From: Desulfobulbaceae bacterium | GTDB taxonomy: Bacteria; Desulfobacterota; Desulfobulbia; Desulfobulbales; Desulfocapsaceae | DNA: 64,000 nt | Direction: 5' to 3' | Assembly: GCA_024636345.1 (NCBI GenBank) | Contig: JAGXHG010000040.1 | Coordinates: 1-64,000 of the forward strand | Shown: positions 284-5,825 of the stretch, one piece after another | Position numbering within the stretch: position 1 is the first letter of the stretch | How the letters are laid out: each line of letters starts with the position of its first letter | Translations under genes and position numbers: made by a program | Notes under the pieces: model-generated | The model's input: only the letters and a program-made list of their open reading frames with translations | The model's database searches: none | What the model was told of the DNA's origin: nothing

Positions 284-308
284 TGTCCGGAAAAGTCTTG
301 CCAGATCA
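284..308 (+). repeat. Putative right terminal inverted repeat of the IS3 element
   Basis: These 25 bases directly follow the transposase stop and mark the border between insertion sequence and chemoreceptor coding sequence. The block has the TGTCCGG...CCAGATCA form known from IS3-group right ends. The exact boundary is inferred from that resemblance and from where chemoreceptor homology resumes (codon at 309). Confidence 0.6.
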
Positions 309-2073
309 CATCAATGCGCTCTCGGCAAATGGCTCTATGGAACGGAACGGCAGGAAGCAGAACGCCATATACCGGCTCTTGTTCCTCTCCTAAAAAATCT
401 CGAACAGCCCCATGCCCAGTTACATTCCTCCGTCAAACAAATTAACGACCTTGCATCAAAGCAGGAAAAGAGCACAATTCTGTCCGAGACTCAGGCCATT
501 TTCGAGACTTCAACCAAGCCGGCAATGGTCTCCGTTGAGGCTATTCTGGCGGAAGTGATTACCGCAGTCGATGCCAATTCAACCGCAGCTCGTGAAAAGG
601 TCAATTCCTCTATCTCTTTCAGTCGAGGACTTATTCTTCTCCTTTCGCTTCTGGCTGTGAGTGTAGGATTACTGATCAGCTTTGTCATCTCTCGCAGCAT
701 CTCCCGTACCACACGCCAACTGACCAATATCACTGACAGCCTTGCCAAGGGGGATATGACAGCTCGTAGTGCCCTGGAACAGAAAGACGAGATGGGCCAG
801 CTTGCCTGCTCTGCCAACAACCTTGCCACAAGCCTTGACAACATGTTTTCACAGACCGGATGCTCTTCATCGACGATCAACGCCTCTACACTCAATCTCG
901 ACCGCTTGTCAGCCTCTCTTTTTTCATCCGCCGAAACCATGTCGGAAAGTTGCAATACGGTAGCAACAGTCGCAGAACAGATGAGTTCTAACATGTCAGC
1001 CATTGCAGCTGCAGCCGAAGAGACCAGCACCAATATCAGCATAGTGGCTGCCGCTACTGAAGAAATGACCACTACCATTACTGAAATCGCCGCAGGCTCA
1101 GCCAAAGCAAGTGTCATTACCATGCAGGCCGTGCAGGAAGCAGAAAAAGCTTCTACCAGCGTCAAGGAACTCGGCGATGCTGCACAAATGATCAACAAAG
1201 TGACTGAAACCATTAACGAAATCGCAGACCAGACTAACCTGCTCGCATTGAATGCCACGATTGAAGCTGCACGGGCCGGTGAGGCAGGAAAAGGCTTCGC
1301 GGTTGTTGCCAATGAAATCAAAGAGCTCGCCAAACAGACCACCGAAGCTACGCGTGAAATAAAGGAACGGATCGAAAACGTACAGAAGTCAACCGGGCAG
1401 ACCATAGCGGTCATAGACACCATCGCGGAGACCATCAACAACACAAACGATATCGTTTCATCTATGGCTGCCGCCGTCGAAGAGCAGGCTGTCACCAGCA
1501 GAGAGATAGCCTCTAACGTCAATCAAGCATCCATTGGCATGCAGGAAGTCACGGAGAATATCGCCCAGGCGTCGATCGCCAATGCAGAGGTGAGCAAAGA
1601 TATCGCCTTGGTCAAAAATGAATCACTGATCGTCGCTGCCGGCAGTTCTGACGTCAAGGAACTCTCAGCGGAGATGAAAGCCAATGCGGCTGCCCTTGAA
1701 CTTATCCTGGATCGCTTTACCTTCCGACCAGCCCTGTTTGATATAGGTAAGATTAAGGACGGACGCCCATTTCAACTGGAAGATGCGACTGACATCTGTT
1801 CTCAGCGGCTACATCGACATGGAATCGAAAAACGTTCCTGATCACCACCAATGCGAGTTTGGCAAATGGTACGATAATGCTCCTGAAAAGATCAAGCTCC
1901 ACCCGCTATTCAAGGAGATAGGTCAGCACCACGAGGCAGTGCACCGGAGAGTTGTTGAAGCTGTTGATCTGTTCAACACCAACAAAACCAACGCTGCCCG
2001 CAACAAGGTGGATGAATTTGAAGACGTCAGAAAGAAATTGTTTATCAGCCTTGACGAAATGTATCTCTCCTGA
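309..2073 (+). pseudogene. Methyl-accepting chemotaxis protein, truncated by IS and frameshifted before its CZB domain
   Basis: This is the remnant of a transmembrane chemoreceptor. The open frame starts directly after the IS end with [11 protein letters not shown], a CZB-like motif in what would be the periplasmic part. It continues through a membrane segment (about 625-705), a HAMP linker and a full signalling hairpin containing the tip motif [18 protein letters not shown]. The frame ends at 1841 in a nonsense tail, but a +1 step near 1757-1767 restores a C-terminal CZB zinc-binding domain. That domain reads [12 protein letters not shown], then DHHQCEFGKWY, then HHEAVH, and ends at 2073. 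The two frames together give a normal MCP-CZB architecture, so I read one gene with an inserted base (probably the extra G in GACGGACG) plus a 5' loss to the IS. The first in-frame ATG is at 525, after the sensor region has been lost. A sequencing error could explain the frameshift but not the IS junction. Confidence 0.85.
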
Positions 2074-2137: not shown

Positions 2138-3060
<923 letters not shown>

Positions 3061-3127: not shown

Positions 3128-4599
3128 ATGATAAATTTTTGGCGAATTTTCTGTCATCTGGTCTGGCTTGTACTGCTGGCGCCACTGTCCCTGTGGGCTG
3201 ATCAACAACCGGGTGCAACGGGGCAGTACCATGTCTCACCGTGGGAGACTGAGGTACTGGTTGCTCTTTTGATGATTGGCACCTTTGGGGGATGCCTCAT
3301 ATGGTATCGTAATATAAAGAATTTGAACCGACGGTTACAGAATGCCTTGACACAAAAGGAAAAAACGGAGACAGAGGCAAAGAAATTTTTTCATGTGGTC
3401 AACGGATGTCCGGTTTCCATTATCATCACCAATGCGCAAGGATTCATTGAGTACGCAAATCCCATGTTTTGTACGGAAACGGGTTACACCAGCAAAGAGG
3501 TGATCGGACGCAAACCAAGCATGCTCCAAAGCACACACACTCCGCTGGAAGTCTATGAGGATCTGTGGCAGACTACCACCAGAGGAGAGGTTTGGCAGGG
3601 GAAACTGTGCTGCCAGAGAAAAGATGGCACCCTCTTTTGGGCAAAGAGCAGTATTGGACCCATTAAAGATCAGACCGGCAAGATAAGCCATTACGTAGCG
3701 GTGAAGGAAAATATTGATCAAACGGTCGCCCTGGAGCAGGAGTTACACTCTTATCAGGCAAAGCTGGAAAAGATTATTTCCCAACGCACCGAAGAACTGC
3801 AGAGATCATTGGAACAGATCGAACCGGCACAGAGGCACATTGACTGTATCCTGGCCTCCCTGGCGGACGGACTTCTGGTCACGGATGGGAACGACACGAT
3901 TATTCTTCTCAACGCGGTTGCGGAAGAATTTTTCAAGGTTCAGGCCAAGGATGTGATCAATACCACCACCCTTCAGGAACTGTTGGCCAGGCATGCCCTC
4001 AGTGTCATTGATCTGCGCAAGACAGAAACGGTAAAGGGTGCCCAGCGCTTTGATGTGGAGCTGCCCACCGAGGATCAACAAGGGATTCGCGTCTTACAAG
4101 CCTCTTCTTCACGAGTATATGACAAGTCAGGGGTTGAACTAGGGGGTACGGTTACCCTCTTTCATGACATTACCAGGGAGCGCGAACTGGACCGACTGAA
4201 GACGGAATTCGTCAGCACCGCCGTCCATGAACTGCGCACGCCTCTCACTTCCATTCGAGGTTTTTCTGAACTCCTGCTGGAGAGGACTTTTCCCCAGGAA
4301 GAGGAGAAGAAATTTCTTTTTTACATCAATCAACAGTCTGAAAATCTTACAAGCATTATCAACGACTTGCTTGATGTATCGAGAATCGAGTCCCGACAGG
4401 GACTTGGTCTTGCCAAGAAAGAAACGGCCATCGGTCCCCTCCTGCGGGAGGTGCTCTTGTTTTGTCAGGAGCCGGGAAATGGTCATCACTGCAACCTTCA
4501 CTTGGACGAGCAGGAAATCTTTCTTGATATCGACAAACAGAAGATCACCCAGGCGCAGGAACGACAGTCACCATAACCCTGCCTATTGGAGAAGCTTGA
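3128..4599 (+). pseudogene. PAS-PAS sensor histidine kinase with its ATPase domain deleted
   Basis: The open frame runs 3128-4576 (482 residues). It has a signal-like hydrophobic start, a membrane segment near residues 42-60, a PAS domain (about 87-190), a coiled linker, a second PAS (about 235-340) and a HisKA domain with phospho-acceptor His367 in AVHELRTPLTS. It breaks off after DKQKITQ, exactly where the ATP-binding N box should start, and ends in QERQSP. In the +2 frame from 4552, GAGTTVTITLPIGEA and a TGA at 4597-4599 give the last residues of a HATPase_c domain. About 100 codons holding the N, G1, F and G2 boxes are therefore missing through a frame-changing internal deletion. A protein made from this gene could sense and be phosphorylated in trans but could not bind ATP. 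Confidence 0.85.
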
Positions 4600-4769
4600 T
4601 GCCTCTCAAAAAAATACTCATTGTCGATGATCGTGTGGAATTACCCAATTTGGTGGGCGCCAGCCTCCGCTCAGCAGAATTTTTCATCACCAGCCTTATC
4701 TCTGGAACGGGAACCGCCTCAACACAAGGAAAGAATACTCAGTGCAAAAGTATCAAACCTGTAACATGA
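4599..4769 (+). pseudogene. Response regulator stub (receiver domain start only)
   Basis: An ATG overlapping the kinase remnant's TGA (4597-4601) starts MPLKKILIVDDRVELPNLV, a standard receiver-domain beginning with the acidic Asp-Asp pair. Similarity ends after about 28 residues, and the frame then runs through unrelated sequence to a stop at 4767-4769. The phospho-accepting Asp (normally near residue 54) and the rest of the receiver are gone. The overlap with the kinase shows the original kinase-regulator operon. The deletion probably ends next to msrAB, whose stop is 7 bp away. Confidence 0.75.
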
Positions 4770-4775
4770 AGGTTG

Positions 4776-5825
4776 CTAAAAACGGTTCCGATATTCTCCA
4801 TAGCCCTCTTCTTCCAGTTTTGAGAGCGGAATAAAACGCAGGGCGGCGGAATTCATACAGTAACGCAGCCCCGTAGGCATGGGACCATCGTCAAAGACAT
4901 GCCCCAGGTGCGAGTCCCCATGGACACTGCGTATCTCAGTGCGCACGGTAAAAAAACCACGATCCTTTTTCTCCACCACGTTCTTTTCTTCAAGGGGCCT
5001 GGTAAAACTGGGCCAACCAGTCCCTGAGGCAAACTTGTCCCTGGAGCTGAAAAGCGGCTCACCGGACACCACATCCACATAGATGCCCTCCTCTTTATTT
5101 TCCCAATACTCATTATGAAAGGCCGGCTCAGTAGCCTCTTTCTGGGTCACCTTATACTGCAGGGGAGTGAGGCGCCGGCGCAACTCTTCATCGGCTGGTT
5201 TTACATACTCTTTTTTCTGCTGCATCCTCTTTTGGGGCCACGCCTTTTCGAGAAATGCCTTTCTGCCTGAACCCTCTTTATAAGCTGCATAATGACTGTA
5301 ATTTTTCCGATAATAATCCTGATGGTACTCCTCTGCCTCATAAAAGGGGACTGGTGGCAGGATCTGGGTGACAATAGGGCCTGAGAAAAGACCTGAGGCC
5401 GCGAGGTCTGTTTTGGATTTTTCAGCCAGCGCCTTCTGCCCCTCATTTTGATAAAAAATAGCCGTTTTATATTGAGACCCACGATCGGCAAACTGGCCAC
5501 CACCATCGGTGGGATCTATCTGATGCCAGAATACCTCCAGCAACTGCGCATAGGATACCTTCGCAGGATCATAAACAACCCTCACCGCCTCATAATGATC
5601 GGTCCGGCCACTGCTCACCTGCTGATAATCTGCGGTCTCCTTGCTGCCACCCGCATAGCCGGCCGTTACCTCGAAAACCCCTTCCAGCTCCTGAAAAGGC
5701 GGTTCCATACACCAGAAACAACCACCGCCAAAAATGGCCACCTCCCGCTGTTCATTGGCCATCACCGGCGTAACGCAGCCCACACCCATCAACAACACAG
5801 CCAGGAAAGTAAAAGTTAAAGACAT
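4776..5825 (-). CDS. msrAB: Bifunctional peptide-methionine (S)/(R)-S-oxide reductase MsrA-MsrB, exported
   Basis: This 349-residue fusion repairs oxidised methionine in proteins: the MsrA part reduces the S epimer and the MsrB part the R epimer, using thioredoxin-type electrons. The MsrA motif [12 protein letters not shown] has its catalytic Cys at residue 36. The MsrB half (from about residue 210) ends in [13 protein letters not shown] with catalytic Cys323, and has GTGWPSF and GDSHLGHVF. It lacks the CxxC zinc pairs seen in some MsrB. The first 23 residues form a signal peptide with a likely cleavage after VMA, so the enzyme acts in the periplasm. A GGAGG box lies about 6 bases before the ATG. 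It is divergent from pyrG and convergent with the decayed sensory genes. Confidence 0.95.

Follow-up and report, generated by a model that had tools for sequence, protein, structure and literature searches.

The stretch analyzed here (64,000 nucleotides, referred to as the window; G000:C19:1-64000, base 1 being the first base of its contig) opens with the damaged copy of a signaling gene, which we consider likely to be a recently inactivated membrane chemoreceptor whose parent carried one CZB domain outside and one inside the membrane and which was hit by an IS3-family insertion and by a 4-base duplication. Judged by comparison with intact relatives, the parent would have run from membrane helix 1 through a periplasmic CZB-type zinc domain, membrane helix 2, a HAMP domain and the MCP signaling hairpin to a cytoplasmic CZB domain. 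The insertion would have cut off its first 86 residues, and the tandem duplication would have put it out of frame after residue 570, with 26 wrong codons and a stop in place of the cytoplasmic CZB domain. The broken copy would most likely yield no working receptor.

Layout of the remnant and its intact relatives

The receptor remnant lies on the forward strand in two segments. Receptor codons start at position 309 (CAT CAA TGC GCT CTC GGC AAA TGG) in a frame that stays open to 1838, and the first segment (309 to 1754, 482 codons) corresponds to residues 87 to 568 of the intact relatives, to 11 of which it is 54 to 75% identical. Scanning the frame 285 to 1838 with Pfam models placed a CZB match at its very start (from base 309), followed by HAMP and MCPsignal. 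The rest of the periplasmic CZB-like domain covers 309 to 443 (E value of 1.5e-10, profile positions 28 to 63 of 64, and alignment with the relatives), the HAMP domain covers 684 to 836 (E value of 2e-6), and the MCP signaling domain with its hairpin covers 1119 to 1583 (PF00015, E value of 1.9e-31). The second membrane helix was assigned by eye to 627 to 689, a hydrophobic stretch immediately ahead of the HAMP match that is also aligned with the relatives. In the shifted frame, the second segment (1765 to 2073) holds a complete C-terminal CZB domain and the end of the receptor, with 57 to 78% identity to the relatives; Pfam detects this domain in the frame 1783 to 2070 (PF13682, E value of 3.6e-12). 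Including the window receptor itself, the genome contains nine matches to the receptor query. No foreign base composition was seen, the G+C content being 0.50 both in 310 to 2073 and in the window as a whole.

The best foreign match in a first search of 38 relatives came from a genome of the same family (G017), with 64% identity, located in a 695-codon open frame. In total, eleven intact relatives from 10 genomes of one order were used for comparison: one each from G168, G169, G176, G174 (L046, a Desulfobulbaceae MAG record), G017, G158, G156, G136 and G139 and two from Desulfopila aestuarii DSM 18488 (L047 and L048, the places of the two G155 matches). All 11 are single open frames of 672 to 680 residues, counted from the chosen starts, and in the alignment each of the 11 shows a CZB site flanked by two membrane helices as well as a C-terminal one. 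All four periplasmic ligands (His, Cys, His, His) are present in 10 of them, G156 having Leu in place of the first His, and in the C-terminal domain the first His and the Cys, as well as the last two His residues in the alignment, are present in every one. The G017 receptor, the one of the eleven that was run through Pfam, returned two CZB stretches. The presence of both CZB domains in one frame in the relatives indicates that the parent receptor carried putative CZB domains outside and inside the membrane. By analogy with other CZB proteins, the intact relatives probably sense zinc or oxidant state both outside and inside the membrane and probably pass the signal to CheA via the signaling hairpin.

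We also looked at the structure of the periplasmic part. The D. aestuarii domain was modeled as a helical bundle (pLDDT of 77.8, pTM of 0.70; four sequences), for which the first Foldseek row was the CZB domain of DgcZ (3t9o; E value of 0.13, TM score of 0.68 by target), with none of the 404 matches below an E value of 0.001. A second aligner placed ordinary four-helix sensor domains above the DgcZ CZB domain (Z score of 10.3, rank 27), many four-helix bundles scoring alike. A PDB sequence search with the C-terminal CZB segment gave no match up to an E value of 1. For the periplasmic domain, the same search listed 8 entries, helical repeats and designs such as PPR proteins (best E value of 2.6e-9); they were taken for helical bias, no matched stretch passing alone.

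The two lesions

Contig C19, one of the 41 contigs of a draft assembly that is 83% complete, starts within an IS3-family element, whose 3′ part occupies 1 to 308 on the forward strand. The end of the transposase frame (3 to 278) matches positions 287 to 369 of the 369 positions of the NCBIfam IS3 transposase model NF033516 (E value of 1.1e-33), a match that falls under the whole-protein cutoff because only the end of the transposase, its last 83 positions, is present. This frame also matches Pfam rve_2 and rve_3 and represents a DDE transposase of the IS3 type, with the IS481 model matching far more weakly (E value of 1.4e-7). The right terminus of the element (284 to 308, forward strand) is a stretch of 25 bases that occurs five times in the genome, four times exactly and once with a single mismatch; the sequences that follow it differ in all five cases, and the end of the element is therefore well placed at 308. 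Transposase end and terminus are thus like those of other IS3-family insertion sequences, of which the window holds only the last 308 bases, with a G+C content of 0.41. Compared with the window's copy, those at C9 (309 bases), C33 and C34 (∼140 bases each) are 99% identical and the one at C16, a shortened internal copy, is 92% identical. The 99% identity among copies suggests that the element moved recently.

The right end of the element passes straight into the receptor frame, as the first-pass annotation had proposed, and its further claim that the start of the receptor is lost also stands: the window receptor begins at residue 87 of ∼672, the N-terminal 86 residues having been replaced by the element. 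Membrane helix 1 has gone with them, as has the first helix of the periplasmic domain, which bears a His ligand; the insertion point lies two codons ahead of the periplasmic Cys ligand. The ligands that are kept are Cys 315 to 317, His 411 to 413 and His 423 to 425, so that the window copy has no periplasmic CZB domain with all four predicted zinc ligands. Nor is it a complete MCP gene with a start and both membrane helices; the receptor frame contains no ATG, GTG or TTG from 279 until the ATG at 525. The CZB-like site that had been proposed for the periplasmic part is supported by the Pfam match and by the ligand set of the relatives, but the statement that most of the sensor was lost was too strong, given that the loss amounts to 86 of ∼672 residues and to one of four ligands.

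The displaced 5′ part, which had been expected beyond the other end of the element, is absent from the assembly. When the first 112 residues of the G017 relative served as a query against the genome of the window, only a paralogue on C35 was returned (42% identity). The one left end of the same element found at a contig end forms bases 1 to 178 of L042 (G000:C2:1-2500), at a contig start, and adjoins a response-regulator-like frame, recognized by eye, which ends at the junction; the flank is not the receptor.

The second lesion is a tandem GGAC GGAC at 1757 to 1764 (forward strand), where the window reads GGACGGAC and the G017 relative aligns a single unit with four bases gapped. The window has ten bases here, where all 11 intact relatives have exactly two codons (seven, G017 and six others, compared codon by codon and the other four by alignment). 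Exact tandem 4-mers are otherwise common, with 231 in the window, and this one stands out only through the absence of the extra bases from all 11 relatives. Tandem duplications of four bases are typical of replication slippage, which is the most likely origin of this one. Past the lesion, the first frame reads 26 wrong codons up to a stop at 1839 to 1841, while the true frame is back at 1765 and carries the CZB domain through to 2073. That domain is out of frame with the receptor owing to the four extra bases, but has its three His and one Cys (His 1768 to 1770, Cys 1852 to 1854, His 1930 to 1932 and His 1942 to 1944) together with the C-x-[LF]-G-K-W motif in one frame. The mechanically called open reading frame starts with the ATG at 1783, downstream of the first His of this domain. 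Both the frame jump near 1757 to 1767 and the complete CZB domain with His and Cys ligands in the other frame, as described in the first-pass annotation, were thus recovered, the jump being a property of the sequence as assembled.

Age and consequence of the probable inactivation

Apart from the two lesions, no stop interrupts the window frame over its 482 and 102 codons. With synonymous distances close to saturation, constraint was read from codon positions instead of dN/dS. Differences unique to the window numbered 23/343, 12/379 and 49/132 at codon positions 1, 2 and 3 of the first segment and 5/81, 4/81 and 10/35 in the second, compared with 14/334, 8/375 and 30/113 and with 2/78, 1/78 and 7/32, respectively, for G168. 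The proportions for G169 and G176, which together with G168 are the three nearest intact relatives, are similar to those of the window. Among the 171 positions of the first segment that are invariant in the 11 relatives, the window changes 8; leaving out the relatives in turn gave 0 to 10 changes, with 1, 4 and 6 for the nearest ones (G168, G169 and G176), close pairs shielding each other. None of the 35 invariant positions of the second segment is changed (0 to 3 when relatives were left out in turn). The coding-like substitution pattern on both sides of the frameshift argues that the gene was under constraint until recently. On this evidence, its inactivation looks recent and any relaxation of constraint in the window copy appears slight at most. 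A long-standing pseudogene is not supported, the codon-position pattern being like that of intact genes.

From the two lesions, the first-pass annotation had suggested that the gene no longer matters. The neighborhood supports the loss itself, since an orphan cheB-like fragment and a kinase gene without an ATPase domain lie beside the receptor. The fragment (2935 to 3036, forward strand), located between receptor and kinase, comprises only the last 34 positions of the CheB methylesterase domain (PF01339, E value of 9.2e-10, positions 140 to 173 of 174). The kinase gene (3128 to 4576, forward strand) has a PAS-PAS-HisKA architecture in Pfam, with no HATPase match at an E value of 0.001, and is probably truncated; a distant homologue (35%; G027:C46) sits in a frame of 678 codons. 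The region 3128 to 4766 is probably a further broken signaling gene. On the other hand, the substitution pattern of the receptor is still coding-like and the genome keeps flagellin, CheB and a paralogue, so the stronger suggestion is supported only in part. Loss of motility as the reason is not supported, since flagellin is matched twice (C1) and the CheB domain twice at nearly full length (C21 and C32); a third, weaker CheB-domain match is found at C22. The idea that the cheB fragment is a copy of the genome's own CheB at C21 was discarded as well, there being no DNA match and 60% identity over 40 residues. Taken alone, the broken gene is a case of ordinary decay.

Past the kinase, near 4605, the start of a response regulator was recognized by eye, without a Pfam match. 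A fused MsrA-MsrB gene (methionine sulfoxide reductase, involved in oxidant repair) lies on the complementary strand at 4776 to 5825, beside the broken receptor, which may be chance; no MsrAB was noticed near the relatives in G017 and D. aestuarii when their open reading frame lists were inspected by eye. Short repeats at 2248 to 2302 and 2423 to 2488 recur elsewhere in the genome, at C34:18913-18967 (95%) and C4:24970-25038 (86%).

Several other readings of the same sequence have to be weighed against a recent double hit. The insertion could be the only real lesion, and the frameshift an assembly or consensus error, as might be expected from a draft of 41 contigs at 83% completeness and from a shifted frame in which none of the 35 invariant positions is changed; the junction with the insertion element could likewise be an artifact of assembly. 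We regard an erroneous frameshift as unlikely: the lesion is a tandem duplication of four bases and neither a homopolymer slip nor a substitution, which would fit slippage in the cell and would be less typical of sequencing error, and the neighboring genes look broken too.

In the remaining alternatives, a product would still be made. If translation began at an internal start such as the ATG at 525, a shortened receptor could result that keeps helix 2, HAMP and the hairpin but lacks a working zinc domain, and it might be locked or interfering. The frame 525 to 1841 is indeed open for 438 codons and looks constrained, but recent inactivation accounts equally well for the constraint, membrane helix 1 would be missing, no Shine-Dalgarno-like sequence was seen by eye ahead of the ATG, and no plus-strand promoter-like site was found in 1 to 525 by a weak scan, which yields no more than shuffled sequences do; such a product thus seems improbable. 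Harder still to credit is programmed frameshifting that joins the two frames, so that the C-terminal CZB domain would still be made from the truncated gene. The downstream CZB domain is intact, as this would predict, but all 11 intact relatives encode theirs without any shift, no slippery run or stop was seen by eye at the junction, and the insertion has taken away the start.

Known CZB receptors and distribution of the two-sided form

CZB domains bind zinc through three His residues and one Cys residue, and the Cys can sense HOCl (PMC8262984); a 2026 preprint proposes that CZB domains read redox conditions via zinc availability (PMC13370339). According to the text of PMC8262984 available to us, a putative periplasmic (N-terminal) CZB domain occurs in membrane chemoreceptors (384 sequences, ∼3.9% of CZB domains), and membrane receptors with a C-terminal CZB domain have also been described. 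With the former, the relatives studied here share the CZB motif in the N-terminal periplasmic part, but they add a cytoplasmic C-terminal CZB domain, and co-occurrence among the 384 sequences is not stated in that text. With the C-terminal-CZB membrane receptors and with TlpD and McpA, as portrayed in the accessible parts of PMC8262984, PMC6715182, PMC12871147 and PMC13370339, they share a CZB domain with three His and one Cys located after the hairpin; TlpD and McpA, however, are soluble, whereas the receptor described here spans the membrane with two helices and carries a further CZB domain outside, and its window copy is broken. Each placement of the CZB domain is thus known separately in the texts at hand, and the layout with both in one receptor is a variant.

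In the literature searched, mostly open-access main texts, we found no description of a receptor that combines a periplasmic with a cytoplasmic CZB domain. The layout can be expected to be listed in domain databases. It is of more interest than the broken gene that points to it. Provided that zinc is bound at both sites, a receptor of this kind would lend itself to testing the zinc-availability proposal, as outlined in the accessible text of PMC13370339, because the two compartments could be titrated separately.

An alternative architecture is found in the C35 paralogue (G000:C35:20233-22410, complementary strand, 726 amino acids; 234 to 2411, complementary strand, of L035, G000:C35:20000-23500). 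Its order of periplasmic CZB, HAMP and MCP domains is that of the window receptor, to whose remnant it is 45% identical, but it has a C-terminal bacteriohemerythrin domain where the second CZB domain would be. This combination of periplasmic CZB and C-terminal bacteriohemerythrin is also present among relatives. Queried with the N-terminal part of the G017 receptor (225 residues), 122 of the 257 genomes of the order gave a match, and the 30 loci returned from that scan were sorted by motif into 10 with a C-terminal CZB domain, 10 with hemerythrin, 6 with neither, 2 that are cut and 2 unresolved. This sorting by regular expressions is rough, since at least two of the six with neither (G133 and G148) and one of the two cut loci (G008) look hemerythrin-like at their end by eye. 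By analogy with known CZB proteins, it is possible, though rather doubtful, that the intact relatives form a distinct class that would compare zinc or redox state across the membrane, with two CZB sites feeding one hairpin, and that the alternative form in the order swaps the inner CZB domain for bacteriohemerythrin (oxygen), the outer zinc site being paired with different inner sensors.

To place the window receptor among these sequences, we used a tree of its first segment with 15 other sequences, in which all proteins were sliced at the same residue numbers, only a rough fit for the hemerythrin-type outgroup. The window groups with G168 and G169 (support of 0.82) and then with G176 (0.98), all three belonging to genus g27, while its own genus is g1. 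Within the latter, 10 of the 16 other genomes match the N-terminal query, at identities of 35% or less. The best match in each of these ten ends hemerythrin-like in nine cases and is without a C-terminal sensor in G001, the ends being judged by look and, for G011, G002, G013 and G001 only, by Pfam. Since the same-genus matches are of the hemerythrin type or sensorless, the two-CZB form is patchy, which may reflect lateral gain or repeated loss. A further variant is seen at L032 (G026:C2), where the frame 679 to 2835 encodes a receptor with two periplasmic CZB stretches (Cys motifs at residues 94 and 185) and no C-terminal CZB domain.
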